A DNA stretch of 39,714 nt from IMG/VR virus record IMGVR_UViG_3300031673_000189, positions 1 through 39,714 of that record. One strand, 5' to 3'. The DNA comes from a virus. Each line of letters starts with the position of its first letter. Position 1 is the first letter of the stretch. Below the pieces are notes generated by a model that was not told the DNA's origin, ran no database searches, and saw only the letters and a list, made by a program, of their open reading frames with translations. This document shows positions 3,526-39,714 of this stretch, in pieces. A program made the translations under genes and the position numbers.

Positions 3526-4200
3526 TTATTTGCCCTCTCTAATTAAATCATCAATATTTATTCCTTTTTTTCTATCTTCATCTGTTATTTCGCATTCATC
3601 TAGATTGCCTGTAATGCCTGTTAGATTACCTGTAATGTGTGATAGATTACCTATAATGTCTGTTAGATCACCTATAATGCCTGTTAGATTACCTGTAATG
3701 TATGTTAGATTACCTCTAATGTCTGTTAGATCACCTCTAATGTCTGTTAGATCACCTGTAATGTCTGTTAGATCACCTCTAATGTCTGTTAGATTACCTG
3801 TAATGTATGTTAGATCACCTATAATGCCTGTTAGATTACCTGTAATGTATGTTAGATTACCTCTAATGCCTGTTAGATCACCTATAATGCCTGTTAGATT
3901 ACCTGTAATGTATGTTAGATTACCTCTAATGTATATTAGATCACCTGTAATGCCTGTTAGATTACCTGTAATGCCTGTTAGATTACCTGTAATGCCTGTT
4001 AGATTACCTCTAATGTCTGTTAGATCACCTCTAATGTCTGTTAGATCACCTGTAATGTCTGTTAGATCACCTCTAATGTCTGTTAGATTACCTGTAATGT
4101 ATGTTAGATCACCTGTGATTCCAGGCGGTATTCCTTCTATTCGTTCACCAGCAATATAATAAAATATTAATGATTTTGTTTTAATTAGTTCTCTTTTCAT
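3526..4200 (-). CDS. Heptapeptide-repeat protein of unknown function
   Basis: 224 residues: a 29-residue head, 24 consecutive 7-residue units (residues 30-197) of pattern G-[DN]-L-T-[DGY]-I-[TRI], and a 27-residue tail (DECEITDEDRKKGINIDDLI). Regular Leu and Ile every seven residues with Gly/Asn turns suggests a stacked solenoid-like fold rather than a coiled coil, because the Gly content is too high for a helix. Phage proteins with similar G-N-L-T-G units and a related acidic tail exist, but I know of no assigned role. It lies between the annealing protein and the gene at 4202, and its stop is 1 bp from the annealing gene's ATG. A run of five units occurs twice, which indicates recent segmental duplication. 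Confidence 0.75.
   Translation of the reverse strand: MKRELIKTKSLIFYYIAGERIEGIPPGITGDLTYITGNLTDIRGDLTDITGDLTDIRGDLTDIRGNLTGITGNLTGITGNLTGITGDLIYIRGNLTYITGNLTGIIGDLTGIRGNLTYITGNLTGIIGDLTYITGNLTDIRGDLTDITGDLTDIRGDLTDIRGNLTYITGNLTGIIGDLTDIIGNLSHITGNLTGITGNLDECEITDEDRKKGINIDDLIREGK
3610..4113. repeat. 21-bp tandem repeat, 24 units, inside the heptapeptide-repeat gene
   Basis: Each unit reads roughly TTAGATTACCTGTAATGCCTG on the plus strand, with variation at a few positions. Larger blocks are also duplicated: the residue block covering units 2-5 recurs at units 16-19. Copy-number change in multiples of 21 bp would keep the frame, so the locus can vary in length without losing the protein. Confidence 0.95.
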
Positions 4201-5158: not shown

Positions 5159-5180
5159 CAAAATTATTGAGGTTGTGAAT

Positions 5181-5504
5181 ATGAAAAAAACTATATCAAA
5201 AAGACCGAAGAAATATGTTAAACACAAGCCGAATATTTTTAGAACAATACGTTTGGAAATGAAGATGTCGCAAATTGATTTTGCTAAATTTGTTTCTGTA
5301 TCTGCTAATTCGATATCACAATGGGAAGAAAACAAGCGCTTTCCGATAGGGCACCATTTAGATATATATTTTGATTTAGTTGCAACGCAAGAAGAATTTT
5401 CAGAGATGAAGTTTTTATTAAAACAATTGGAGTCAATCAAAAATGAGGACAAGAAAAAGAAAAATGAGCAGAAAAAGAAGCGAAGAGAAAAAGAAAAGAA
5501 TTAA
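5181..5504 (+). CDS. Cro/CI-type helix-turn-helix regulator
   Basis: 107 residues from the ATG at 5181, which has GAGG upstream; an in-frame GTG at 5175 is less well placed. The HTH (about 20-65) shows the XRE pattern: IRLEMKMSQIDFAKFVSVS as helices 1-2 and SANSISQWEENKRFP as the recognition region. A long Lys/Glu/Arg tail (about 90-107) follows, with no peptidase or dimerisation domain as in lambda CI, so it is closer in build to Cro or a small repressor. It is divergent from the recombination operon and probably controls both promoters through the repeats at 5100-5180. Whether it maintains lysogeny or only times early expression cannot be told. Confidence 0.75.
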   Translation: MKKTISKRPKKYVKHKPNIFRTIRLEMKMSQIDFAKFVSVSANSISQWEENKRFPIGHHLDIYFDLVATQEEFSEMKFLLKQLESIKNEDKKKKNEQKKKRREKEKN

Positions 5505-7339: not shown

Positions 7340-8113
7340 ATGGCTGTTAGACGAATGTTTTCGCTTAAGATACTCGATACAGATAATTTCCTCGCTATGC
7401 CGACCTCGGCAAGATTGCTTTATTGTGATTTGGCAATGAGGGCTGATGATGACGGTTTTGTAGATAGCCCAAAAAAAATAATGAAAATGACCGGGGCATC
7501 AGAAGACGACTTAAAAGTTCTCGAGGCTAAGAATTATATTTTCCCATTTGAAAGTGGAATATGCGTCATTAGGGATTGGCGAGTGCACAATTATATACAG
7601 AAAGATAGATACCAACCCACTATTTACAAACAAGAATTAAATCAACTTGGCATTGATGAAAATGGCATGTATACAAAATGTATCCAGAATGTATCCAATT
7701 TGGAAACACAGGTTAGGTTAGGTGAGGTTAGTTTAGGAAAGGATAGGGTAGATAATTCTATAGCCCCTCCCGAGGTCGGGGCTGAGCAACAACAACTAAT
7801 TTTAGATGTTTTGAAGAAAGAGAATATTCCATATCAACAAATCATCGATTTATATCACCAGCATTTGGGTAATGTATTAACAAAAGTAAAAATTCTATCT
7901 GAACAACGTAAAAAATTAATAAAAGCCAGATGTAACAATGAACTTCCAACATTAGAGCGTTGGGATATTTATTTTCAGATGGTTAAAAATTCTGATTTTT
8001 TAATGGGTAGAACACTGAAACCTTTTTATGCTGATATTGATTGGTTAATAAATTCTTCTAATTGTATCAAAGTGTTGGAGCATAAATACTCCAACGGGAG
8101 ATTGCACAGATGA
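7340..8113 (+). CDS. Phage replisome-organizer-like replication protein
   Basis: 257 residues. The N-terminal domain (about 1-100) has the pattern of phage replication initiators: RRMFSLKILDTDNFLAMP, LLYCDLAMRADDDGFVDSPKKIMKMTGAS, then VIRDWRVHNYIQKDRY, a winged-helix arrangement. A variable linker (about 125-155) is encoded by unusual G-rich DNA. The C-terminal part (about 155-257: LPTLERWDIYFQMVKNSDFLMGR, FYADIDWLINSSNCIKVLEHKYSNG) resembles the helicase-loader contact region of such proteins. It probably binds the phage origin and recruits the host helicase. It overlaps the zinc-ribbon gene by 4 bp. Confidence 0.75.
   Translation: MAVRRMFSLKILDTDNFLAMPTSARLLYCDLAMRADDDGFVDSPKKIMKMTGASEDDLKVLEAKNYIFPFESGICVIRDWRVHNYIQKDRYQPTIYKQELNQLGIDENGMYTKCIQNVSNLETQVRLGEVSLGKDRVDNSIAPPEVGAEQQQLILDVLKKENIPYQQIIDLYHQHLGNVLTKVKILSEQRKKLIKARCNNELPTLERWDIYFQMVKNSDFLMGRTLKPFYADIDWLINSSNCIKVLEHKYSNGRLHR
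7711..7783 (+). other. G-rich repeats and GC hairpin inside the replication gene (possible origin)
   Basis: GGTTA/GGTGA-type repeats (7711-7750) are followed by a hairpin, AGCCCC (7762-7767) with GGGGCT (7778-7783). They stand out from the AT-rich surroundings and encode the linker of the initiator-like protein. Lambda-type phages place the origin inside the initiator gene in the same way, hence the suggestion. No binding site is proven. Confidence 0.35.
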
Positions 8114-8683: not shown

Positions 8684-8755
8684 AGCGGGGTGAGAGCAAA
8701 GGTAGCTGGTCGGGTTCATAACCCGAAGGTTGTTGGTTCGATTCCAACCCCCGCT
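8684..8755 (+). tRNA. tRNA-Met (CAT), initiator-like with irregular D-arm
   Basis: The acceptor AGCGGGG pairs fully with CCCCGCT (8749-8755). The anticodon arm is TCGGG-TTCATAA-CCCGA with CAT at 8717-8719. The T-arm is GTTGG-TTCGATT-CCAAC. Three consecutive G:C pairs in the anticodon stem are the hallmark of initiator tRNA, and much of the molecule reads like bacterial tRNA-fMet. Departures: position 1 is paired (A1-U72) instead of the C1xA72 mismatch; there is one extra base between acceptor and D-stem; the D-stem has a G-G mismatch. CCA is not encoded. It could be elongator, Ile2 (lysidine) or initiator type. Confidence 0.85.
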
Positions 8756-8783
8756 TTGCATTCTTAAAAGCTTGTGGTATTAT
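8755..8783 (+). promoter_or_regulatory. Candidate promoter with extended -10, directly after the tRNA
   Basis: TTTGCA (8755-8760), 17-bp spacer, TATTAT (8778-8783) preceded by TG at 8775-8776 (extended -10). Start would be near 8790 and the only product before the terminator is a 75-nt RNA. The -35 is weak and overlaps the tRNA end. Confidence 0.4.
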
Positions 8784-8865: not shown

Positions 8866-9090
8866 TTACGAGTTCCCGTTCTTTTCTTCTACCGAGTCGG
8901 GAAGTTCCGAGTTATTTCTTTCTATTCCCGCTTCTATTCTTTCGAGAATCTCCTCCCGATGGACTGGAATTTCTTTTGCTGCATGTATGCCTATCTTGCA
9001 TCCTCCTTGCCAGCACCTTAAAACTTCTACAATTACCTCCCTGTCGCCAATAATAATTCTTTGCCCATTAAGCCTTGTTAGCACTAACAT
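8866..9090 (-). CDS. csrA: CsrA/RsmA-family translational regulator
   Basis: 74 residues. It begins MLVLTRLNGQRIIIGD and continues with CKIGIHAAKEIPVHREEILERI, which is the CsrA fold from end to end. RNA-contact residues are kept: Leu4 and Arg6 in strand 1, and Val43-His44-Arg45 equivalent to Val42-His43-Arg44 of E. coli CsrA. The Cys/Trp/Gly-rich segment 26-31 replaces the usual GNQV loop. CsrA homodimers bind GGA motifs near ribosome-binding sites and repress or stabilise mRNAs. It is the last gene of a seven-gene leftward operon, with GAGG before the ATG. A phage copy could redirect host carbon metabolism and motility or time phage mRNAs. Confidence 0.95.
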   Translation of the reverse strand: MLVLTRLNGQRIIIGDREVIVEVLRCWQGGCKIGIHAAKEIPVHREEILERIEAGIERNNSELPDSVEEKNGNS

Positions 9091-9101
9091 TTTATTTTCC
9101 T

Positions 9102-9476
9102 CTATTTAAAGTTTTGTTGTAGTTGAGCCGGCGTATAAGTAGCTTTTAGCCCATTCAAATGATCGATGTATTTGTCTAGCAGTTTGCTTTCTATATCTTT
9201 TAGTAATCCTGGGGTTAGCGTAAGCGTGATGTATAGGTCTTCGTACGTCTTGCTTTTGCTTATCTGCTTTACGATATGATCGCAAGCTTCGGTTAGAGCT
9301 TTGCTGTAAGTCATGGTATTTTGAAAGAAACTTGGCGCGTCGATTAGTTTTTGAAAAAAGAATATACTGCTTCTTCCGCAAGTTTTTTCACGTGCCACAT
9401 CGTATACTGTACTTATCAGCGCGGCTTTTAGCTCGAAAAGATGTTTTTGCATCGGGTTGTAAGTTTGTGCGCTCAT
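9102..9476 (-). CDS. Hypothetical protein (124 aa), csrA operon
   Basis: A helical, soluble protein with Phe-rich segment SIFFFQKLIDAPSFFQ (about 37-52). No membrane segment and no recognised domain. The ribosome-binding site is GGAG upstream of the ATG. It lies 11 bp before csrA, so the two are probably co-translated or co-transcribed. Confidence 0.6.
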   Translation of the reverse strand: MSAQTYNPMQKHLFELKAALISTVYDVAREKTCGRSSIFFFQKLIDAPSFFQNTMTYSKALTEACDHIVKQISKSKTYEDLYITLTLTPGLLKDIESKLLDKYIDHLNGLKATYTPAQLQQNFK

Positions 9477-9490
9477 TTAATTTCTCCTAT

Positions 9491-9649
9491 TTATTTGTAG
9501 CAGTTTAAAGCAGCCCATGCGATTAGCACGCTTATAGTGCTAAAAGCAATAAAGTTGCAAGTGAAGCGTAAAGCTAGAGTTTTAAAGTTATTCCCCCAGG
9601 TCTTTTTCCAGGTCTTTTCGCTGTAGTCATTTTCTGCGTAATCTTTCAT
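9491..9649 (-). CDS. Small single-span membrane protein (52 aa)
   Basis: A charged N-terminus (MKDYAENDYSEKTWKK) and a hydrophobic segment at about 30-50 (CNFIAFSTISVLIAWAAL). GGAG lies before the ATG at 9649, and 4 bp separate it from the previous stop. It fills the gap between two otherwise abutting genes, which supports it being real. Function unknown. Confidence 0.55.
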   Translation of the reverse strand: MKDYAENDYSEKTWKKTWGNNFKTLALRFTCNFIAFSTISVLIAWAALNCYK

Positions 9650-9653
9650 TTAA

Positions 9654-9959
9654 TTATCTCCAGTTTAAATATAGATCTTTTATTAAGTAGCTAGCGGATA
9701 TATCAAGCAAATGTCTTTCGCGTCCTATCGTATAGTAGTTTACGTGATTGCTGTGTGATTTGCTTATGTATATGCGCAACTTTGGCTGGTTTTTCGGCTC
9801 TACTATGACCCAGGCCTTTGTCTTATGTAGCACAGCTTTTAGCGGCTCGATCTGTGCTTCGTAAGATTTCCCCGTAGCCTCGTCTATCCTATGCAAGTTT
9901 TTTTGAAGCTCCCACAGGGCGCCGATGAAGTTACTAAATGTCATTTCTTGATAAGTCAT
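9654..9959 (-). CDS. Hypothetical protein (101 aa)
   Basis: N-terminal helices, then strands (KAWVIVEPKNQPKLRIYISK) and a helix (LLDISASYLIKDLYLNW). No recognised domain. Ribosome-binding site AGGAG. Like its neighbours it belongs to the leftward csrA operon and looks less AT-rich than the late genes. Confidence 0.6.
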   Translation of the reverse strand: MTYQEMTFSNFIGALWELQKNLHRIDEATGKSYEAQIEPLKAVLHKTKAWVIVEPKNQPKLRIYISKSHSNHVNYYTIGRERHLLDISASYLIKDLYLNWR

Positions 9960-9978
9960 AAATTACTCCTTAAGTTAA

Positions 9979-10311
9979 TTAATTTTTAAAAAATTCGTCG
10001 TACTCTTTTTTCTGAATCTCGCTTAAATCTTCACGCATAAAGTTTTCAAAACGGCACTTGTGATATTTCGCGCATATATCGCAAACCATGTTCATGATAA
10101 GCCCTTTTTGCTCTTCATCGTCTTTTGCTGTCTTCGTAGAAATTATCTCAAGCTTGGTTTCTTCCCCTTCTTTTACTGTGATGTCTGCACAGAAGTAAAC
10201 ACATTGAAGTTCATTTTGTATATATCCCAAAAGCTCATCTTTTTGCTCCAGCATATAAGTGTCGAAAGGGATTGTGTTTAGATTCACTGTAACATTTATT
10301 GATCTAGTCAT
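9979..10311 (-). CDS. Hypothetical protein (110 aa)
   Basis: The first half alternates strand-like Val/Thr/Asn segments (SINVTVNLNTIPFD). The second half has a Cys-containing helix (MVCDICAKYHKCRFENFM) that might bind metal through CDIC and the following Cys. No recognised family. AGGAG ribosome-binding site. Confidence 0.55.
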   Translation of the reverse strand: MTRSINVTVNLNTIPFDTYMLEQKDELLGYIQNELQCVYFCADITVKEGEETKLEIISTKTAKDDEEQKGLIMNMVCDICAKYHKCRFENFMREDLSEIQKKEYDEFFKN

Positions 10312-10322
10312 GTTATTTACTC

Positions 10323-10739
10323 CTATATTTTAGTTGCCATTTTTTGGGTTTGCGTCCAGATGAGTTGATCTAACCAGCAGTGAAACCTATTTTTGCAGTC
10401 CTGATCATCCCAAACGTTGAACTTCGTGCAGATCGCCTTTTTCACCTCTTCCCTTTTGCCTTCTGACCACTCGAACTTAGTGTGGATATATTTTACTTGA
10501 GGGATATTTTCATTTTTGTTGTTATGTTCGTAGATGTCTTCTTGCCCGTTAAAGCTTCCTAATTCGTACTTGCTCACTATCTTTTTTACTGCTTCAGATG
10601 TGACCGGGTAATCTATCCAGCCTATACTTATGCAACTGAAATGTTCAACGCGAACTGTGAATTTAGTTTCCGGGAAGGATTTTTTAAGATCGGCTCTTAT
10701 TGCTTTTGCGCATATTGCATCTTGTGATAAAGTTTTCAT
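10323..10739 (-). CDS. LPD29-like domain protein
   Basis: 138 residues. AKAIRADLKKSFPETKFTVRVEHFS...SIGWIDYPVTSEAVKKIVSKYELGSFNGQEDIYE matches my recollection of the LPD29-type domain seen in phage and polyvalent proteins: a helix, a strand, then a W.D.P....V..I...Y..G.F.G..D pattern. It is here as a stand-alone protein with a C-terminal Trp-rich extension. The molecular role of the domain is not established. Second gene of the csrA operon. Confidence 0.6.
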   Translation of the reverse strand: MKTLSQDAICAKAIRADLKKSFPETKFTVRVEHFSCISIGWIDYPVTSEAVKKIVSKYELGSFNGQEDIYEHNNKNENIPQVKYIHTKFEWSEGKREEVKKAICTKFNVWDDQDCKNRFHCWLDQLIWTQTQKMATKI

Positions 10740-10760
10740 TTTGATTCTCCCTAGATTAAT

Positions 10761-11018
10761 TTATATTTGCTCTGCCCATCCCTCTGCCATCCTTGCAAGC
10801 TCAATAGCGACCTCCGGTTGAGTTTCCCAATTTTTATAGAGGTCTTGATCTTCTTTTGGCAAAGCCGGTAGAAACTCTTCTAGAAAACTTTTGATCATTT
10901 CGCTTTCTTTTGCGTTCATCGCTGCTCTGCTAGCATCGGTGCTATCTATATCCTCTAGAAAACTTAATTTGATATATTCTTTGACAATCTGACGATGTTT
11001 TTGTTTTTTAGTTAACAT
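10761..11018 (-). CDS. Hypothetical helical protein, first gene of the csrA operon (85 aa)
   Basis: Basic start (MLTKKQKHRQIVKEY), then acidic helices (SMIKSFLEEFLPALPKEDQDLYK) and a Trp-containing C-terminus. All-helical by pattern, no recognised domain. Ribosome-binding site AGGAG. It is the first gene behind the strong promoter at 11120-11147. Confidence 0.55.
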   Translation of the reverse strand: MLTKKQKHRQIVKEYIKLSFLEDIDSTDASRAAMNAKESEMIKSFLEEFLPALPKEDQDLYKNWETQPEVAIELARMAEGWAEQI

Positions 11019-11119
11019 TTGATTTACTCCTAAATTAATTAAATAAATAATATTAAAACCCCTTAAATCGCAGTGTTTAATTGTGATAATTATTTACTGC
11101 TTCTTATTATTATGATTTA

Positions 11120-11147
11120 ATAATATCACAAATATTCGCAATGTCAA
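11120..11147 (-). promoter_or_regulatory. Strong sigma70 promoter of the csrA operon
   Basis: On the minus strand: a perfect TTGACA (11147-11142), a 16-bp spacer, TATTAT (11125-11120) with TG one base upstream (extended -10). An AT palindrome (TTATTA...TAATAA, about 11104-11123) overlaps the -10 and downstream side and could be an operator. Expected start is near 11113, about 95 bp before the first ATG. Confidence 0.75.
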
Positions 11148-11181
11148 CAATATTTTTACAATCATATTTTACGGTAGTTTT

Positions 11182-11364
11182 ATGAAAGAAAAAAACTTGA
11201 AAAGAAGATTTAGCGACTCTTATATAACAGAGTATCGACAGCTTAGAACGGAAGTTGCTCATCTCAACTTATCTATAGCTAGACAGCAAGATGAAATAAT
11301 AGAGCTTAAAAAGAAATTCAATTATCTAGCTATGGAATATAAGAGGCGGTTTAATATCTTTTAA
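11182..11364 (+). CDS. Small coiled-coil protein (60 aa)
   Basis: Basic N-terminus (MKEKNLKRRF) and then one long helix with heptad-like Leu/Ile spacing (TEVAHLNLSIARQQDEIIELKKKFNYLAMEY). Similar short coiled-coil proteins often stand at the edge of phage late regions. The ribosome-binding site is weak (ACGG). It is the only rightward gene between the csrA promoter and the terminase region. Confidence 0.5.
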   Translation: MKEKNLKRRFSDSYITEYRQLRTEVAHLNLSIARQQDEIIELKKKFNYLAMEYKRRFNIF

Positions 11365-11629
11365 ATAAATATTTTCTCCCCCTCTTGCTTTTTTGATCAA
11401 AAATATGCTACCCTGTATGCTCCATAGCATGCCTAAAGCATCTCCAAAGAAATACATATTATAACTTTCTATTTTTTCCCCTCCGCGAGCACGACGCGAG
11501 CGCCTCTTCTCGCGAGCGCAAATGGATAAGCGAGCCAATACAAAAAGAACAATAAAAAGGAATAACCAATAAAGATTGTCCCGCTGCAAGCACCGTCAAT
11601 ATTGGCCCGCACCCTATTTTATATATTTT

Positions 11630-11668
11630 GCTACCAGCAAAGTAGCAATTTGCTACTTTCAAAGTAGC
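11630..11668. repeat. Nested GCTAC/GTAGC palindrome cluster
   Basis: GCTAC at 11630, GTAGC at 11642, GCTAC at 11652 and GTAGC at 11664 alternate. The middle part reads AAAGTAGCAA (11639-11648), T, TTGCTACTTT (11650-11659): a perfect 10+1+10 palindrome. GCTACTTT/AAAGTAGC (11652-11659/11661-11668) makes another. Spacings of 12, 10 and 12 bp put the motifs roughly on one face of the helix, as for a multi-site protein-binding element. Confidence 0.85.
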
Positions 11669-11753
11669 GCATTAATTTTTCTGACTATATAAAATATGTC
11701 AGGTTTTTATCCAAATTTTTGCTCCCAATTTTTTAGCCCTTTAAAAGTAATTA

Positions 11754-11783
11754 TTGACAACGGAACGATTTCAAAAGTATTAT
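11754..11783 (+). promoter_or_regulatory. Sigma70 promoter before the terminase/late operon
   Basis: TTGACA (11754-11759), an 18-bp spacer, TATTAT (11778-11783). Expected start is near 11790, 38 bp upstream of the ATG at 11828. It lies inside the apparent upstream extension of the small-terminase ORF, which argues that the extension is not translated. Confidence 0.65.
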
Positions 11784-11827
11784 GTTTACAACCCTTTAAT
11801 TATATGGGGGTTTGGGGGCTTTTGATA

Positions 11828-12115
11828 ATGTCTATGAGTAAAAATTACCCACCTACGATTCCGCCTGAAGCTTTGACAGTTGACTATGTAAAAAGTGCTA
11901 TATGTGAGATAGTCGACGAATGTTTAAAAGAAAAAGGCAGCTACAAGCACTATAACTGCGCCCTGACAGCTTTAAGCGAAGCAAGTAAAGTCTTGGGTGC
12001 TTATGCGCCTGAAAAGACCATCAACCAAAACCTCAATTTATCTGCTGATGGTGATATAAAAGAGCTCATGGATCTCAGAGCTAAGATGCTAGAAGAAAAG
12101 AGAAAAGAGTACTAA
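11828..12115 (+). CDS. Putative terminase small subunit
   Basis: 95 residues from the ATG at 11828. The frame is open back to 11696, but the promoter at 11754-11783 and a GGGGG stretch before 11828 favour this start. Pattern: a helix-rich N-terminus (LTVDYVKSAICEIVDECLKEKG), then YNCALTALSEASKVLGAYAPEK, typical of small-terminase proteins (a 'G.YAPEK' turn), and a C-terminal helix that could contact the large subunit (DIKELMDLRAKMLEEKRKEY). Expected to recognise the packaging site. Unusually, six genes separate it from the large subunit. Confidence 0.65.
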   Translation: MSMSKNYPPTIPPEALTVDYVKSAICEIVDECLKEKGSYKHYNCALTALSEASKVLGAYAPEKTINQNLNLSADGDIKELMDLRAKMLEEKRKEY

Positions 12116-12137
12116 CCAAAACTTATGGGGCAATAGT

Positions 12138-12326
12138 ATGAAAACTAAGACAAAACAAAAACTTAAAGTGCCTTCTTATGCTGTAAAGATAGAGATGGAG
12201 CATACAAAGAGCAAGAAGAAAGCTAAAAAGATCGCCACAGATCATATAAAAGAGCTAGGGAAGGCTTACTATCCGGCTTTGGTAAAGATGGAAGCTAAAC
12301 TTAAGAAGAAAAGGGGGAAGAAGTGA
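12138..12326 (+). CDS. DUF5661-like basic protein (62 aa)
   Basis: The segment AVKIEMEHTKSKKKAKKIATDHIKELGKAYYPALVKMEAKL follows the pattern 'G..VE.EHT.....A..IA.DHL.E...YY..L..ME' that I associate with DUF5661 proteins of phages. It is very Lys-rich, with a tail KKKRGKK. The role in that family is unknown to me. Its TGA overlaps the GTG of the next gene. Confidence 0.55.
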   Translation: MKTKTKQKLKVPSYAVKIEMEHTKSKKKAKKIATDHIKELGKAYYPALVKMEAKLKKKRGKK

Positions 12327-12628
12327 ATAACAATACCGTTAAATTGGAGCATAGGTTAGAAAAGTTAGAGGAAATTTTAAGAGAGATTTGTAATAAAATA
12401 GGCTCCGATGCTTATAAACAAATAGATATACAACACGTTTGGAAATTAGATATAGAGAATGAAGACGACTTCACTTACTTTTCCTTATTAGGAATAATGA
12501 AAGAACTAACAGCGATGAATGAATGCATAAGGAAAGATTTAAATTCCGATTGTATTAGAATTTTATCTAGGCAAATATGGAGACTTGCAAAGTATTTAAA
12601 AGAAAACGAAGAGAGAGGTAAGAAGTGA
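12323..12628 (+). CDS. Hypothetical helical protein (101 aa)
   Basis: GTG start overlapping the previous stop (GTGA). The N-terminal helix is amphipathic (LEHRLEKLEEILREICNKIG) and more helices follow. No recognised domain. The tight GTGA overlaps on both sides mark it as part of a translationally coupled set. Confidence 0.5.
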   Translation: MNNNTVKLEHRLEKLEEILREICNKIGSDAYKQIDIQHVWKLDIENEDDFTYFSLLGIMKELTAMNECIRKDLNSDCIRILSRQIWRLAKYLKENEERGKK

Positions 12629-12723
12629 GCACATCTGCTGATGAAAAGTTATATAAAAACATAGTTAAGTATGTAAAGGCTTTTGAATCTCGTCTTGAAG
12701 ATTTAAAAAGAGGTAAAAAATGA
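12625..12723 (+). CDS. Very small helical protein (32 aa)
   Basis: GTG start overlapping the previous stop, and TGA overlapping the next ATG. One amphipathic helix (DEKLYKNIVKYVKAFESRLEDL) and a basic end. Overlaps on both sides and spacing of the ribosome-binding site (GAGAGG) support translation. No function recognised. Confidence 0.45.
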   Translation: MSTSADEKLYKNIVKYVKAFESRLEDLKRGKK

Positions 12724-12938
12724 TTATCAGATGCCCCCTTTGCGGTGGAACCGGGAAAGTCCTAGGTTGTGGCTTTATGGAAACAAAATGCCCTATGTGT
12801 GATGGTGTAAAGTCTATAGATGACGGAGTAATAGACCCCCCACCAGTGATTTGTCTTCCTGATGATGAGAAAAAAGATACAGTAGTAAAGATAGTAAAGG
12901 AACCCCCTAGAAACAATAGAGCTAGAAAGAAAAGATGA
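12720..12938 (+). CDS. DnaJ-type zinc-finger small protein (72 aa)
   Basis: CPLCGGTGKVLGCG and CPMCDG form the CxxCxGxG zinc motif of the DnaJ cysteine-rich domain, residues about 5-30. The rest is Pro-rich and ends in RNNRARKKR. Such proteins may bind metal and contact other proteins, but without a J-domain this is not a DnaJ. Function unknown. Overlaps its neighbours by 4 bp. Confidence 0.6.
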   Translation: MIIRCPLCGGTGKVLGCGFMETKCPMCDGVKSIDDGVIDPPPVICLPDDEKKDTVVKIVKEPPRNNRARKKR

Positions 12939-13593: not shown

Positions 13594-15135
13594 ATGAACA
13601 CGTGCGAGAAAATGGAAATCCTTAACTTTGAAACAGATATCCTCAGCTCATATTTGGGTTTCACAAAGACCTTTTTTAAATTACTTACTGGTAATGACTT
13701 CAGAATAAGCACACCAGATGGGAGAGAGTCTCATCACCTAATACTTGCACGAGAGCTTACTAACTTTTTCCATGGTAAGACTAATCGACTGATCATAGCA
13801 ATTCCCCCACGCTATGGTAAAACTATGATGCTAACCTTTTTTATGGCTTGGGCAATAGCTATATATCCCGACTGTCAATTCTTGTACATTTCTTATGGTC
13901 ATCAGCTTGCAACGGACGCTACGGCAATGTGTAGAGATATAATAATGCTGCCACACTATAGAAAGCTTTTCGGTGTTGAAATTGACCCTGATTTCTGTGC
14001 CAAAGACGATTTTAAAACAACAGCGGGTGGTAGGGTTTGCGCGGCAGGATCGAGTGGTACAATCACAGGAAAAGGTGGTGGTGTGCAAGGAGCGACCAGA
14101 TTTAGCGGTGCGATCCTAATGGATGATATGCACAAGCCGGATGAGGCGCTTTCAGATACGATAAGGGAAGGCGTTAAATATAACTATCATGCGACGATCA
14201 AATCTAGAGGTAATTTAGGTGAAAGAACGCCGCAAATATACATGGGACAAAGAGTGCATGAGGATGATCTAGGAGCAGAACTTTTAGCACTTCCGGAATG
14301 GGATAGAATAGTTTTGCCAGGGATTGATAGATCGGGCAATGCGCTTGACCCGTATCTACACACTAGCCAACAGCTTTTGACGATCAAAGAACGGCAACCG
14401 TATGTTTTTAGCGCGCAGTTTCAACAAGACCCCATGCCGGCAGGTGGAGCTGTATTTAAAAAAGACTGGTTTTTTCTATGTGATAATGAGCCAGAAATGT
14501 TAGCGACTTTTATCACTTGTGATACAGCAGAAACAAATAAGGACTATAACGACAAGACAGTTTTTAGTTTCTGGGGTATATACAAGATTCAGCAAGGATA
14601 TGTTGAGACAAATATCATGGGATTGCATTGGATAGATTGTATTGAATTATCTGTCGAACCGAAAGATTTGGAAAATGAATTCATGAGCTTTTATGCTGGA
14701 TGTATGAGACATAAGGTAAAGCCTTCTGATATAGCGATAGAAAAGAAATCAACAGGCGTAACGTTATCATCAGTTTTGAAGGGCGTTCAGGGATTAAAAA
14801 TAATCGATATTAACAGGACGGCTTCTTCAGGCTCAAAAGCAACTAGGTATAGTGAAATGCAACCCTATGTTTCTACTAAACGCATTTCGTTGCCTAGAAA
14901 TGGCCGGCACACTACAATGTGTATCGAACATATGGCCAAAATTACTTTAAATAACAGTCACCGCTTCGATGATGTGGCCGACACAGCCTATGATGCGGTA
15001 AAGATGGCGCTAATAGATGAAACAATAGCAAAGAAATCTTTTAATGATAATGCGGGGCGATCATCACAGATGGTAAGAACATTAAACCAAAACTTTAAGA
15101 AAACACTACAATTGCGGGAGAATAGAGTATGGTAG
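13594..15135 (+). CDS. Terminase large subunit (ATPase and nuclease)
   Basis: 513 residues. ATPase domain: Walker A PPRYGKT (about 71-77) and Walker B ILMDD (about 174-178; acids 177-178). C-terminal RNase H-like nuclease: the first Asp in FITCDTAET (Asp310), an acid in IAIEKKSTG (Glu383), and RFDDVADTAYDAV (about 458-468) as the last acids. The motor packages DNA into proheads and the nuclease makes headful or cos cuts. Length and motifs fit the headful-type family. Its stop overlaps the portal ATG by 7 bp. Confidence 0.9.
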   Translation: MNTCEKMEILNFETDILSSYLGFTKTFFKLLTGNDFRISTPDGRESHHLILARELTNFFHGKTNRLIIAIPPRYGKTMMLTFFMAWAIAIYPDCQFLYISYGHQLATDATAMCRDIIMLPHYRKLFGVEIDPDFCAKDDFKTTAGGRVCAAGSSGTITGKGGGVQGATRFSGAILMDDMHKPDEALSDTIREGVKYNYHATIKSRGNLGERTPQIYMGQRVHEDDLGAELLALPEWDRIVLPGIDRSGNALDPYLHTSQQLLTIKERQPYVFSAQFQQDPMPAGGAVFKKDWFFLCDNEPEMLATFITCDTAETNKDYNDKTVFSFWGIYKIQQGYVETNIMGLHWIDCIELSVEPKDLENEFMSFYAGCMRHKVKPSDIAIEKKSTGVTLSSVLKGVQGLKIIDINRTASSGSKATRYSEMQPYVSTKRISLPRNGRHTTMCIEHMAKITLNNSHRFDDVADTAYDAVKMALIDETIAKKSFNDNAGRSSQMVRTLNQNFKKTLQLRENRVW

Positions 15136-17312
15136 AAGTAGCTAAAAGATATCAGGACGATATAAAGGAAATAAAAGGGAATGTGGAAAATTCTTATGAA
15201 TATTTTAAATCTAATTATGAACGATACCATGAGTTTAGAAAGTTTGCTTTTATTTCTACGTTATCAGATAGCGATATAAACGTACTAAAGCAACTAAACA
15301 AGCCGCAGTTAGACTTTAATATTGTTGGTGCTTATTTGGCTAGGTTATGTGGGGAGTTTTCCAAGCAAGAGCCGTCAATAGAAGTATCTGCCGATTATAA
15401 CGCACAAGTAGATCCTAATTTAATTCAGCTTGTGGAAGGACACTTTAGGCATTTAGAAGACCAAGCTAGGAATGATGGTGTAGCGACAGAAGTGTACGAA
15501 GACCAAACAAGCGGAGGGTTTAGCGTTTTCAAAGTTTGGACTGAATACGCCCATGAAATGAGCATGGATCAAGTTATAAAATGGGGGCGTGTATATGACC
15601 CAACGTTATGCGGCTTTGACCCTTTAGCTAAGCTTTCGCATAAAGGCGATGGAGAATATTGCTTTGAAATGTACCCAATGAGAAAAGAAGAATTCAAAGA
15701 AAAATACCCCGATGTAAATATTGATAACGTGAGATTTTCTAGAAATATGGAAGGTTTTAATTGGGCATATAAGAATGAAAAGGACGATATTTTATTGTTT
15801 GTTGAATATTACGGAAAGAAAAGAAAGAAAATAAAACTATTGCAGTTAGCAGATGGTCAAACAATGACCAATGAAGAATATGACAAATTTATAAAAACAT
15901 GGGAATCGCAAAAAATAGAAGTGCCTCCTGCAATAATAAATGAAAGAACATCTACTTTAGAAACTATATGCAGATATAGATTAATAGAGGATCAGGTTGT
16001 TGAATATAAAGAGACAAACTTTCCTTTTCTGCCATTAATTTTTGTAAAAGGCAAAAAGGTTTTAAGTAGAGATAGCGTAAATGGTTCAATTCAAGAATAT
16101 CAATTGCCATACATTTATAATGCTAAAGGAGCGCAGAAGCTAAAAACATTTGCTGGTAATACTTTGGTAAATGAACTTGAAAACATGGTGATGCACAAAT
16201 TCAAGGTTGCAAAAGAAAGCATACCCCCCGAATATCTTGACGCATACGAAAATATCCAGCAAGCCAGTACTCTCATATACAATGCTTATAAAGATAATGA
16301 CCCAACCATTCCTGTTCCTCCGCCACAAGAAATTGCGCGTGTTCCAGCGCCACCCGAAGTTATGAGCTCGTTTGCTATGGCTGACCAGCTAACGCAAACA
16401 ATACTTGGTTCGTACGATGCGGCGTTGGGAATAAATGATAATCAACTAAGCGGGGTTGCTATAGTAGAGGGAGCTACGCAATCCAACTCGGCGGCTATGC
16501 CTTATGTAGTTTCTTATATGGAGGCTTTGAATCGGGTTGCACAATTAGTTATTAGATTAATTCCAGAATATTATGTATCACCTAGAAGTTTGCCGGTCAT
16601 TGGTAAAAATGGTAAAAGGACTAATGCAACAGTCAATGCTCCGGGACAAATGAAGCTAAAATATGACCCAAACGCGCTACAAATAAAAGTAGGTGCCGGG
16701 GTTAATTTCGCAATACAGAAGAATAGGGCACTAAATCAAATTATTGCTATGGCACAGGCAATGCCCGTGTTTGCGCAGTTTGCTAATGAGCCGGGATTTT
16801 TGGAAGTGTTGCTGGATAATTTCGAAATACGTGGAGTTGATAAACTTAAGATGCTAGCACAGCAATACAATCAAAAATTAATGATGCAGCAACAGCAGCA
16901 ACAAGGCATGCCTAATCCAATGATGATGAAGTTACAGAACGAACAAGCTGAAATACAGAGAAAGGCTCGAAAGGATCAGGTGGACGCAACAATAGAAGCT
17001 GCCAATTTACAGCTTAAACAACAAGCACTACAAAATGACCAAACGGAATTAACATTGAATGCACACCAAGCACATATTGATAGCCTCGTCCAAGTAGATA
17101 AACATCAAGCTGAAAAACAAAGAGCAGCGGTTGACATGGCAATAAGTGCCGCTGATATGAGCCATAGGCATGCGCATGATGTTTTGAGTATGCACCATAG
17201 ACATGGGCTGGAATCTGACGAGCTCCAGCATAAAGTTGCTAATACTATCTTGCAACACGTTTCACGTGAAACAAGTAATATTCCACAACAGGGATCAGAA
17301 GATAATTTATAA
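15129..17312 (+). CDS. Portal protein, P22-like
   Basis: 727 residues, near the P22 portal length (725). The N-terminal half is mixed, with the family pattern DFNIVGAYLARLCGEFSKQEP and QTSGGFSVFKVWTEY. The middle has a central helix and wing (ALGINDNQLSGVAIVEGATQSN). The end is a long helical barrel-like region (about 575-705) rich in Gln, Ala and His, as in P22's C-terminal barrel. Twelve copies would form the portal ring at one vertex. The last codons contain a parS-like site (17258-17273) encoding HVSRETS. Confidence 0.85.
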   Translation: MVEVAKRYQDDIKEIKGNVENSYEYFKSNYERYHEFRKFAFISTLSDSDINVLKQLNKPQLDFNIVGAYLARLCGEFSKQEPSIEVSADYNAQVDPNLIQLVEGHFRHLEDQARNDGVATEVYEDQTSGGFSVFKVWTEYAHEMSMDQVIKWGRVYDPTLCGFDPLAKLSHKGDGEYCFEMYPMRKEEFKEKYPDVNIDNVRFSRNMEGFNWAYKNEKDDILLFVEYYGKKRKKIKLLQLADGQTMTNEEYDKFIKTWESQKIEVPPAIINERTSTLETICRYRLIEDQVVEYKETNFPFLPLIFVKGKKVLSRDSVNGSIQEYQLPYIYNAKGAQKLKTFAGNTLVNELENMVMHKFKVAKESIPPEYLDAYENIQQASTLIYNAYKDNDPTIPVPPPQEIARVPAPPEVMSSFAMADQLTQTILGSYDAALGINDNQLSGVAIVEGATQSNSAAMPYVVSYMEALNRVAQLVIRLIPEYYVSPRSLPVIGKNGKRTNATVNAPGQMKLKYDPNALQIKVGAGVNFAIQKNRALNQIIAMAQAMPVFAQFANEPGFLEVLLDNFEIRGVDKLKMLAQQYNQKLMMQQQQQQGMPNPMMMKLQNEQAEIQRKARKDQVDATIEAANLQLKQQALQNDQTELTLNAHQAHIDSLVQVDKHQAEKQRAAVDMAISAADMSHRHAHDVLSMHHRHGLESDELQHKVANTILQHVSRETSNIPQQGSEDNL
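17258..17273. promoter_or_regulatory. parS-like ParB-binding site, inside portal gene
   Basis: CGTTTCACGTGAAACA matches the symmetric parS form TGTTTCACGTGAAACA at 15 of 16 bases; the inner 14 bp (17259-17272) are a perfect palindrome. In the portal frame it encodes part of HVSRETS. ParB-family proteins bind such 16-mers to load onto DNA. It lies 1.09 kb from the perfect site at 18349. Confidence 0.7.
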
Positions 17313-17857: not shown

Positions 17858-18283
17858 GTGAGAATAAAAGATTTAAATCCAGATGAGTTATTAAATAAGA
17901 TCCATTTAAAATTATACGATAAAATAATCACTCATTATGGAAAGCCTTCTATTGATAAGCAATTAGTTGATAGAAGCAGGTTGACTTATAAGGAGCGTAT
18001 TTTATATAAGATTATCCCCATAGAGCGTTGCTGGATTGACTACGATGATGAATTTGTCGATGATGAATCTTTAGCTAAAGACATAAGTAGCGATTTATTC
18101 AAAAAGATAAAAGTAGCAATGCCAAATATCCCTGATAATAAAAATATATTTTTTTACGAAGGCATAGATGTGTCGAACAACAAATGCCATGTATTTGATA
18201 GCAACACCCTTCCTATAATGATCGTCATTAATGACATAGACAAAAGATGTGAGATAGAAGTTAATATTTTTATTGAAAGATAA
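17858..18283 (+). CDS. Hypothetical acidic protein (141 aa)
   Basis: Starts with GTG. Helical N-terminus (NPDELLNKIHLKLYDKIITHYG), then Asp-rich segments (CWIDYDDEFVDDESLAKDI) and C-terminal strands. No recognised domain. It stands alone between the tandem terminators and the origin-like region, so it needs its own promoter or read-through. The isolation and the strongly acidic centre make it a candidate non-structural protein, possibly linked with the element downstream. Confidence 0.55.
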   Translation: MRIKDLNPDELLNKIHLKLYDKIITHYGKPSIDKQLVDRSRLTYKERILYKIIPIERCWIDYDDEFVDDESLAKDISSDLFKKIKVAMPNIPDNKNIFFYEGIDVSNNKCHVFDSNTLPIMIVINDIDKRCEIEVNIFIER

Positions 18284-18312
18284 GCGACCAACTGATTAGA
18301 GATTAGTCTAAT

Positions 18313-18344
18313 TATACCTATCCTATACCTATCCTATACCTATC
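18313..18344. repeat. Three 11-bp iterons
   Basis: TATACCTATCC occurs at 18313-18323 and 18324-18334, followed by TATACCTATC at 18335-18344, head to tail with no gap. The 11-bp period places each unit near the same helical face. It directly precedes the parS site by 4 bp. Such iterons usually bind an initiator or partition protein; which one is unknown here. Confidence 0.85.
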
Positions 18345-18348
18345 AATT

Positions 18349-18364
18349 TGTTTCACGTGGAACA
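18349..18364. promoter_or_regulatory. Perfect parS site (ParB/Spo0J binding)
   Basis: TGTTTCACGTGGAACA, which read on the other strand is TGTTCCACGTGAAACA, the canonical 16-bp parS of bacterial chromosomes. A chance match of 16 defined bases in 38 kb is negligible. It lies in non-coding DNA between iterons and DnaA boxes. No ParB gene is visible in the window, so a host ParB is the likely partner. Confidence 0.9.
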
Positions 18365-18375
18365 TGTTAATAACC

Positions 18376-18405
18376 TGTGAATATCTTGTGAATAAGTTAT
18401 TCACA
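18376..18405. promoter_or_regulatory. DnaA-box cluster
   Basis: TGTGAATAA (18387-18395) and TTATTCACA (18397-18405) are perfect TTATNCACA boxes in opposite orientation, forming a perfect 10+1+10 palindrome (18386-18406). A third, one-mismatch box lies at 18376-18384 (TGTGAATAT). They sit 12 bp past parS, followed by AT-rich DNA (18420-18455) suitable for unwinding and an inverted repeat CTTGTT-agta-AACAAG (18455-18470). Confidence 0.7.
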
Positions 18406-18559
18406 ATTTGTTTACAAAAGATGTTTTGGGGTTTAATTTTATATTCATACTTTACTTGTTAGTAAACAAGGTCATTACGCAGCTATGCGGTTGAAATAGT
18501 CGAAACTCACACGTTAGATGAGGCATTACCGTGACGGGGCAATAGTCAAGAGGTTTTAT

Positions 18560-19330
18560 ATGGTCGAAGCTCAAAGTGCAATGACTACTCCAGATTCTGG
18601 AGTAAGTTTAAGTAATAATTCAGTAGAACCTAAAACAGAACAAACGCTGGCAGTAGCATCAGGCAATAAGCCGGAAGTTGCTCAAGAAACGGTAAATCCC
18701 GTTGCTGTAGAACAAGAAAAGACCTTGAAACAATCAGAGGTTGATAAACTTGTTGGGCGTGTTAAACACGAAGCAGCAGAAAAGGCACGTAAAGAAGCTT
18801 TTAACGATTATCAGCGGCAACTAGCTGCACAACCGATACAACCAATACAACAAAACACTGGTGGCATTGGGAATGTAGATATAGCAACTGAAGTTCGTAA
18901 TCAATCAATCTTGTTGGCACAACAAATGCGACTACAACAAGAAGGGGATTCCTTAAGGCAGAAAATTGAATTAGCCAAAGAGAAATACCCAGATTTTGAA
19001 AAAAAAGTTATGGAGCCTTTGAAGCTTAGAGAGTTGCCGATTCAATTTGCTGAAATATTAAATTCAGTTGATAACATTGGGGATTGTCTAAAAGAAATGG
19101 CAGATAATCCTACTAAATTTACTGAAGTAGCAAATGCCGCAGTTTGGAATCCTGAATTAGGTAAGAAATTATTATTTAAGCTGTCAGATTCTATTAAAAA
19201 GAATGAAGAGGTATTAAAACAACCTCCTGCACCACAGCCACTAGACCAGCTAAAACACTCACCAACTGGTACAGATAGTGGCGTATTGACTATTAAGGAT
19301 TTTAAAAAACAACCATGGTTACGTGGTTAA
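18560..19330 (+). CDS. Scaffolding protein, P22-like position
   Basis: 256 residues from the ATG at 18560, chosen for AGAGG 7 bp upstream; an in-frame ATG at 18518 has no good ribosome-binding site. Low-complexity N-terminus (Ser/Gln/Val/Pro, about 1-60), helical middle with heptad-like Gln/Leu (about 100-145), and a C-terminal part ending in FKKQPWLRG. Its place directly before coat matches the scaffold gene of P22-like phages, whose product guides prohead assembly and leaves before packaging. The assignment rests on gene order and composition. Confidence 0.65.
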   Translation: MVEAQSAMTTPDSGVSLSNNSVEPKTEQTLAVASGNKPEVAQETVNPVAVEQEKTLKQSEVDKLVGRVKHEAAEKARKEAFNDYQRQLAAQPIQPIQQNTGGIGNVDIATEVRNQSILLAQQMRLQQEGDSLRQKIELAKEKYPDFEKKVMEPLKLRELPIQFAEILNSVDNIGDCLKEMADNPTKFTEVANAAVWNPELGKKLLFKLSDSIKKNEEVLKQPPAPQPLDQLKHSPTGTDSGVLTIKDFKKQPWLRG

Positions 19331-19396
19331 TCTTAAAATAGTTTAGCAAAGCCATTATCTCTACTTAATTCTTAATTGATTATTTGGAGATTCCAA

Positions 19397-20659
19397 ATGC
19401 CTTTGCCTTCTAATATTTTACAAACGGTACAAACGTACCAATCATCGGAATTGGCTTTTTTACAAAACCTTTTCTGTTTCATTAGTACCGCAAACACAAA
19501 ATTCAAAGATTTCGAAAAGAGAGAAGCGAATTTGGGTGATACGGTTAATTTTGATTTACCACCGCGCTATACGACTACTAATAGTTTGATAGCTACTTTC
19601 CAAGATTCTAAACAACGCGTTCAAAGCTTGACGGTTGACAAAGCGGTTAACACTGCTTATGCGTTCAGCGCTCAACAGTTCATTTTTAACGTGAAAGATT
19701 ACATGGAAAAATTTGGTAAAGCCGCCATTTATGAAATTGGCTCACAGATTGAAGCCGATGTAGCACAAAACTGCATCGAAAACCACACTTTCCGTTTTTA
19801 TGGTGATGGTGTAACTGCTATCAATTCTTACAGCCAATTAGCTACCGCTATGGCGTATTTCCGTAACTTCTCAGCAGTAAAAGATAATGCTCGTGGTTAT
19901 TTGCATGATATCGCAGTACCGGGAATTATCAATTCTGGTTTGAGTCAATTTGTTATGGATCGTAACGAACAAATCGCCAATTCTTGGGAATTAGGAAGAT
20001 TTGCCCATACTGAATGGTACCAATCCAATTTGTTACCTCTTCACGTTTCCGGTTTAATTGGTAATGGTGCGAGTGCAGCAGTTCAAACTTTGACTGTTGT
20101 AAGCACTAACGACCCAACCGGTGCCGCTATTACCCAAATCACTTGTACTTGTGATGGTTCGTTGTCAGGTGCTACTGGTGTAATTAAAGCTGGTGACGTT
20201 GGTCAGTTTGTTGATGGCGTGAGTGGACAGCCCAATATGCGCTATCTAACTTTTGTTGGTCATAAAGTATCTGCAAATACAGTTCAAGTTCGTGCTACTG
20301 CTGATGCTGATGCCTCAACCACTACGGTTGTGTTAAGCGTATTTCCAACTCTATGTGCAACGCAAACTCAAGATCAAAATATCAATAACAACATTGTTGC
20401 TGGTATGAAGATTAAGATGATGCCGTCACATCGTGCTGGTTTAATTACATCTGGCAATCCATTGTTCTTAGCAATGCCGCGTTTACCAGAACAAGTTCCG
20501 TACCCAACTGCTAATGAATCAGATCCAGAATCTGGTGTTTCATTACGTATGTATTACGGTTCATTGTTTGGACAAAACCAAAGTGGATTTGTTCATGATG
20601 CAATTTGGGGATCAACCATGGTTGACGAAAATGCAATGCGCATTCTTTTCCCAGCTTAA
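19397..20659 (+). CDS. Major capsid (coat) protein, P22-like
   Basis: 420 residues, close to P22 coat (430). Start at the ATG at 19397 (MPLPSNIL) with GGAG upstream. Typical pattern: a short N-terminal helix, FKDFEKREANLGDTVNFDLPPRY and the loop TTTNSLIATFQDSKQRVQSLTVDK, which is the P22 family signature in this region. The central extra domain is Thr/Ala/Gly-rich (about 225-320). The end is WGSTMVDENAMRILFPA. HK97-fold shells of about 415 copies are typical. High expression is expected. Confidence 0.85.
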   Translation: MPLPSNILQTVQTYQSSELAFLQNLFCFISTANTKFKDFEKREANLGDTVNFDLPPRYTTTNSLIATFQDSKQRVQSLTVDKAVNTAYAFSAQQFIFNVKDYMEKFGKAAIYEIGSQIEADVAQNCIENHTFRFYGDGVTAINSYSQLATAMAYFRNFSAVKDNARGYLHDIAVPGIINSGLSQFVMDRNEQIANSWELGRFAHTEWYQSNLLPLHVSGLIGNGASAAVQTLTVVSTNDPTGAAITQITCTCDGSLSGATGVIKAGDVGQFVDGVSGQPNMRYLTFVGHKVSANTVQVRATADADASTTTVVLSVFPTLCATQTQDQNINNNIVAGMKIKMMPSHRAGLITSGNPLFLAMPRLPEQVPYPTANESDPESGVSLRMYYGSLFGQNQSGFVHDAIWGSTMVDENAMRILFPA

Positions 20660-39610: not shown

Positions 39611-39714
39611 TTACCCAGACCCAGACCTAGACCCAGACCCAGAACTAGCCCAAGACCTAGACCTAGCCCTAGCCCTAGACCCAGCCCAAGACCCAGCCCA
39701 AGACCTAGACCTAG
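39611..39714 (-). CDS. Hexanucleotide-repeat ORF, partial copy of 1764-1988
   Basis: The contig stops inside the array, so only the 3' part of the repeat ORF is present. One base differs from the left copy (39644 A versus 1797 C), either a read error in the array or real variation between genomes. Confidence 0.35.
   Translation of the reverse strand, partial: RSRSWAGSWAGSRARARSRSWASSGSGSRSGSG

Follow-up and report, generated by a model that had tools for sequence, protein, structure and literature searches.

The phage genome described here carries an exact copy of the chromosome-type parS site, TGTTTCACGTGGAACA, in the absence of any recognisable ParB or ParA of its own, and it appears very probable (roughly 0.85, by our estimate) that the site is bound by the ParB protein of the bacterial host. 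The window, by which we mean the whole stretch of 39,714 nucleotides that was analysed (IMG/VR record IMGVR_UViG_3300031673_000189), also contains a second parS-like site, and sites of the same kind recur among related phages far more often than chance would allow; carriage of parS proves to be recurrent in phages whose hosts have ParB. How such binding would benefit the phage is a matter of more graded opinion. The best single use appears to be the retention and segregation of an unintegrated phage genome by means of host ParB, a reading to which we would give about an even chance and which is suggested by the scarcity of integrases in this family of phages and by the presence of partition genes in one of its members.

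The phage and its parS sites

An overlap of 1,867 bp, with a single mismatch and lying in an array of 6-bp repeats, joins the two ends of the window into a closed map of about 37.8 kb; a bacterial flank on the contig is ruled out by this self-closure. The gene set is that of a P22-like podovirus, with terminase, portal, head protein, head closure and DNA-ejection protein (Table 1), and no phage record resembling the middle 20 kb of the window at the DNA level was found. The scaffold-like ORF is weakly similar to proteins at the same place in relatives and probably starts at 18560, where the ATG has a better ribosome site than the one at 18518. Searches of the whole record for ParB_N (PF02195) and for the ParA-type family AAA_31 (PF13614) gave no match, and a phage-encoded ParB was rejected on this ground; the window thus has neither of the proteins that a phage-plasmid with a parABS system of its own encodes. 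Tyrosine integrase (PF00589) and serine recombinase (PF00239) likewise had no match in the window, as would be expected of a plasmid prophage. No recognised Rep or CI was found in the window, where a DnaD-like initiator and a small HTH_3 protein are present.

Table 1. Coordinates of the parS sites, adjoining elements and selected genes in the window.
Feature	Position	Strand	Remarks
Small HTH_3 (XRE/Cro-type) DNA-binding protein	5175..5504	+	divergent early promoter region; possible repressor
DnaD-like helicase loader / O-like replication initiator	7340..8113	+	internal repeats 7667-7737
Terminase large subunit (terL)	13594..15135	+	PHROG 38; query for relatives
Portal protein, P22-like	15129..17312	+	PHROG 156; non-conserved C-terminus with second parS-like site
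Second parS-like site CGTTTCACGTGAAACA	17258..17273	+	1 mismatch to TGTTNCACGTGNAACA, 13/14
Non-coding region with 11-bp repeats, parS and DnaA-box cluster	18284..18559	.	ORF gap
Three tandem 11-bp repeats TATACCTATCC, iteron-like	18313..18344	+	directly upstream of exact parS
parS, exact chromosome-type 16-mer TGTTTCACGTGGAACA	18349..18364	+	16/16, no mismatch
DnaA-box-like TTATTAACA	18365..18373	-	1 mismatch; 11 bp from next box
DnaA-box-like ATATTCACA	18376..18384	-	1 mismatch; 11 bp from next box
DnaA box TTATTCACA, perfect	18387..18395	-	left half of inverted pair TTGTGAATAAGTTATTCACAA
DnaA box TTATTCACA, perfect	18397..18405	+	right half of inverted pair TTGTGAATAAGTTATTCACAA
Scaffold-like protein before major head protein	18518..19330	+	"scaffold" from position
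Major head protein	19376..20659	+	PHROG 283

The initial annotation of this DNA had described an exact 16/16 parS site in non-coding DNA of a phage without ParB or ParA, and each of these statements held: a mismatch search recovered the site, which also matches the chromosomal consensus TGTTNCACGTGNAACA at 14 of 14 positions, and placed it in a gap that separates a small ORF, with its end at 18283, from the scaffold-like ORF (first ATG at 18518, or 18560), with portal-side and scaffold genes on either side. Under a first-order Markov model of the window genome the exact 16-mer is expected 1.0e-5 times per genome and the consensus 9e-5 times, and a scan of the local sequence at up to three mismatches gave five matches against 0.24 expected, each palindromic site being scored once per strand. 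Rfam families had no match in the gap at gathering score, and a structured RNA at the site was rejected for this reason. What the annotation had overlooked was the second site, CGTTTCACGTGAAACA, which lies 1.1 kb from TGTTTCACGTGGAACA at the 3' end of the portal coding sequence; there it is translated as part of HVSRET and falls in the non-conserved C-terminus, past the part of the protein that aligns with most relatives. Also overlooked were the precedent of phage phi29, considered below, and the repeats and DnaA-box cluster that adjoin the exact site.

Further copies of the 11-bp repeat TATACCTATCC were not found in the window at up to one mismatch. On the other side of parS, four DnaA-box-like sites (at most one mismatch each) are packed directly downstream within 41 bp, three of the four at 11-bp spacing, and the cluster closes with the perfect inverted pair TTGTGAATAAGTTATTCACAA at 18385-18405. 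A 50-bp stretch with four DnaA boxes occurred in none of 60 dinucleotide shuffles of the window, and the DNA of the cluster is non-coding and 70-76% AT, with boxes clustered as in an origin. In their arrangement the repeats, parS and DnaA boxes resemble a compact origin joined to a centromere. Cumulative GC skew has no turn at 18.3 kb, and the initiator gene contains repeats (7667-7737) that constitute a second candidate origin.

Composites of DnaA boxes and parS are rare among viral parS sites. No comparable cluster was found beside parS in other relatives of the phage, and none of 134 sites on other, unselected viral contigs has a perfect DnaA box within 100 bp; DnaA boxes beside parS were rejected as a general rule for these reasons. 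Searches of IMG/VR for the combined pattern returned 25 and 33 contigs, as compared to 15 with the boxes reversed as a control; the excess is modest and comes in part from one phage group. Several T7-like podovirus contigs (L285, L289, L296, L298, L301, L305 and L309) have an exact parS amid 6-7 DnaA boxes, in arrays of non-coding DNA that are like a small oriC. In another contig, L304, three parS copies occupy 160 bp (292-448), the first two of them separated by three DnaA boxes, and the parS region reads in one frame as MFHVEH repeats.

Recurrence of parS in relatives and in other phages

Terminase and portal searches yielded 71 viral records (about 1.51 Mb) as relatives of the window phage; relatives are about 50% identical to the window in terL, and no close relative was present in the collections searched. 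A parS site with at most one mismatch to TGTTNCACGTGNAACA occurs in 14 of the 71 and is exact in six of these, whereas the reversed pattern has no match in the same 1.51 Mb; most relatives have one site or none. When 909 kb of the relatives' sequence was searched with 200 permuted palindromes of equal composition, the observed counts were never reached at 0, 1 or 2 mismatches. The sites vary in place, being found before the terminase gene, inside it, in the gap between terminase and portal, or among the ejection genes, and some are far from head genes; conservation at the position occupied in the window was not found among the relatives. In a terL tree built from 23 near-complete genomes the presence of parS changes seven times, in a scattered rather than clustered manner, which argues that the site has been gained and lost repeatedly instead of being inherited in place. 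No site is present in 13 of the 22 near-complete relatives on this tree, and in one pair of near relatives, G022 and G017, the alignment begins at the edge of the parS site of G022. Repeated gain of a 14-base match would be hard to explain without selection, and a recurrence so far above chance in related phages suggests that parS is probably selected for the binding of host ParB. Such recruitment of host ParB had been proposed in the initial annotation, whether to segregate an extrachromosomal prophage, to load SMC and organise the DNA, or to act as a decoy, with conservation of the 16-mer at the same place in related genomes as a check. The position is not conserved, which counts against the proposal; the presence of parS on a phage without ParB and the recurrence of the site in the family, far above chance, speak in its favor.

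Genes for integration and partition are scarce in this family. Of the family members searched, a single one (G039) has a tyrosine integrase, and no serine recombinase or resolvase was found in the relatives' records searched. Nor did these records contain a ParB_N match above cut-off; a match in G046 was rejected as ParB since it belongs to a DNA methylase. The same relative, G046, is the one in which a ParA was found, a protein of 213 aa followed by a small basic protein of 92 aa, and the likeness of this pair to small plasmid partition cassettes suggests that plasmid-like maintenance probably occurs in the family of the window phage. The pair (L275 3048-3882) adjoins a Rep-like ORF (1761-2714). 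An integrated relative in L. maceachernii, which is flanked by bacterial genes and has a serine recombinase (read by eye), contains no parS within two mismatches, this being one prophage in an isolate. The ParA of G046, the scarcity of integrases and the integrated prophage devoid of parS would fit an association of parS with an unintegrated genome, in what is a small sample.

Outside the family, the exact 16-mer is present in at least 120 IMG/VR contigs, as compared to one for the reversed 16-mer, and 49 of 50 such contigs, many of them fragments, have no ParB_N match. A short blastn search of GenBank phages returned 170 records for the natural site and four for the reversed site, the four not lying over the core; many of the parS records are near-copies of each other and the counts are not independent. 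The GenBank matches are mainly to phages of Pseudomonas, Arthrobacter, Bacillus and Listeria, to which a palindromic variant of the site adds phages of Microbacterium and Gordonia. E. coli and its kin are not known to have a chromosomal ParABS, and the few enterobacterial entries among the matches listed, which have no exact match to the whole core, fit this absence. Phages of the phi29 and Otagovirus types have exact sites, and P100-type and microvirus records have parS-like matches. At the extreme, a 116-kb viral contig of 65% GC (L045, IMGVR_UViG_3300037518_000322) has 11 exact copies in about 5 kb, from 8906-12906 and on, those inspected being inside ORFs. In the Pseudomonas syringae phage phiPsa300 (L283, MT670418) an exact parS at 385-400 lies within the direct terminal repeat, and relatives of this phage are listed with the same match in their repeats.

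Hosts, precedents and possible uses of parS

Relatives of the window phage are also found on genome contigs assigned to an uncultured gammaproteobacterium, an uncultured Legionella and L. maceachernii; other bin labels (Bacteroidetes, Saccharibacteria, Thermoplasmata) may reflect misbinning. ParB was present above the family cut-off in six of eight tested genomes that carry relatives, and most genomes holding relatives have both ParB and parS. The window's own host probably belongs to the non-sporulating Gammaproteobacteria. In the genomes inspected for this feature, those of L. maceachernii, the uncultured Legionella and G072, parS lies by recF, and the recF region of L. maceachernii contains both 16-mers of the window exactly, 642 bp apart, CGTTTCACGTGAAACA being identical to the second parS site of that genome (G080:C16). 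On bacterial chromosomes DnaA boxes and parS generally share one origin region. The dnaN-recF oriC/parS region of Legionella has the same 16-mers as the window phage, whereas in the phage the element is compressed into about 100 bp and is set in the operon of head genes.

Exploitation of this kind has precedents, in principle, in phi29 and Spo0J and, for plasmids, in the genomic island SGI1. Bacillus phage phi29 (NC_011048) has four exact copies of parS, one of them close to where the connector (portal) gene ends, and like the window phage it carries the identical 16-mer and has no ParB. Meijer et al., writing in EMBO J in 2005, are said to have described host-type parS in phi29 and its relatives and to have found that Spo0J is needed for the genome to become entrapped in the spore. 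The two phages differ in that phi29 is linear, protein-primed and virulent with a spore-forming host, while the window phage is a terminally redundant P22-like podovirus. SGI1 owes its stability to the parABS system of IncC plasmids, which it hijacks (PMC10954446). As proposed here for the window phage, a mobile element draws on the partition machinery of a different replicon, but this machinery is that of a plasmid rather than a chromosome, and SGI1 is an island of the integrative and mobilisable kind. The phage-plasmids P1 and N15 and the mycobacteriophage RedRock have partition genes of their own (PMC7157519). Their unintegrated prophages are partitioned by parS, a state that we can only infer for the window phage, and they encode ParA and ParB along with parS sequences of their own, whereas the window phage has neither protein. 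The literature searched yielded no account of host-type parS in phages, and what appears to be new is the recurrence of the site in an integrase-poor P22-like family, its breadth across phages and the origin-like composite.

We propose that the two chromosome-type parS sites of the window are functional and would recruit host ParB (with CTP), and through ParB also ParA and SMC. With the exact site lying within an origin-like element, beside which host DnaA would probably dock, the phage genome may pose as a small origin region of the host. Host ParB and ParA would then tether an unintegrated phage genome, be it a plasmid-like prophage, a carrier state or a stalled infection, and pass copies to both daughter cells. 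More tentatively, 18313-18405 could be a miniature mimic of a host origin, by which replication, positioning and inheritance would all be left to the host and no partition gene would be needed; the arrays of the T7-like contigs would then be independent inventions. Several observations count against retention. The position of parS varies and 13 of 22 near-complete relatives have no site; the relatives through which a host would be assigned are distant in terL; the small HTH protein is the sole hint of lysogeny; and the initiator gene holds another candidate origin, while DnaA-box clusters are missing at the relatives' parS sites and perfect boxes at the 134 other viral sites. Furthermore, since sites are also present in phages presumed to be strictly lytic (phi29-like, P100-like and T7-like contigs), the segregation of a prophage cannot be the sole use of parS.

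Because virulent phages carry parS too, the main rival is a use in lytic growth, in which ParB spreading and SMC loading would organise replicating phage DNA, position it (e.g., at the origin or pole) or shield it from host nucleases. This is possible, and we hold it to be clearly the less probable use. It would account for the parS or parS-like sites in the phi29, Otagovirus, P100 and microvirus types and in the DnaA-box arrays of T7-like contigs, for none of which a prophage is expected, and the DnaA boxes adjoining the window site suggest that host replication is recruited; however, most relatives grow without a parS site, no gene in the window is linked to SMC or ParB, and the missing parS of the integrated relative is left unexplained, a single case being weak evidence. 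It is unlikely that the sites serve to silence genes, with ParB spreading from 17.3 and 18.3 kb to shut the neighboring head genes and impose a host-fed delay on the lytic program. The scaffold-like and head genes do follow directly on the exact site, and there is a precedent in Pseudomonas aeruginosa, where ParB is reported to repress promoters adjoining parS3 and parS4 (PMC5521831). The relatives, however, have parS at many different places, some of them far from head genes, and promoter-like sites near parS are no commoner than in shuffled sequence.

Titration of ParB off the chromosome by many phage copies of parS, which would disturb host segregation, seems improbable as well. The 11 copies of L045 and the four of phi29 would suit such a decoy, but two sites per 38 kb would add little until many rounds of genome replication had passed, and most relatives have one site or none. 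A chance origin of the sites is rejected by the Markov expectation (1e-5 for the exact site), the permuted palindromes and the reversed controls, and passive carriage of 16-mers without function in the phage is very improbable in the face of 14 of 71 relatives against none, and at least 120 viral contigs against one, even though the position of parS varies and most relatives have no site. We would give least credence to binding by a phage-encoded protein not recognisable as ParB; many small proteins of the window have no known family and could include one, but the sequence is exactly that recognised by chromosomal ParB and matches the chromosomal sites of genomes that carry relatives.

Should phages of ParB-bearing bacteria carry chromosomal parS as a regular feature, ParB would be a widely exploited host factor, and an unintegrated prophage would need no partition system of its own. 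Plasmid-like prophages of this sort would then escape gene-based searches, which would change how they are recognised, and ParB and SMC would become testable players in phage infection. The DnaA-box/parS composite would offer a minimal natural construct for asking what passes as a host origin.

Other features of the phage genome

Arrays of the 6-bp repeats ACCTAG/ACCCAG occupy 1766-2191, 2631-2741 and 39613-39714 of the window, and it was probably at these arrays that the assembly broke. Two ORFs within them code for SGSGSWSGSRS repeats and share the start MIITNSYYYW. A further array, of 21-bp units in 24.6 copies (3601-4116), codes for GNLTGITGDLTDIRG repeats in an ORF on the minus strand (3526-4200), the predicted product of which resembles a beta-solenoid protein. 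The window also has a weak RecT match, a tRNA-Met (CAT) gene at 8684-8756, and a stand-alone small protein at 10323-10739 that consists of the LPD29 domain (PF18847, large polyvalent protein associated domain).
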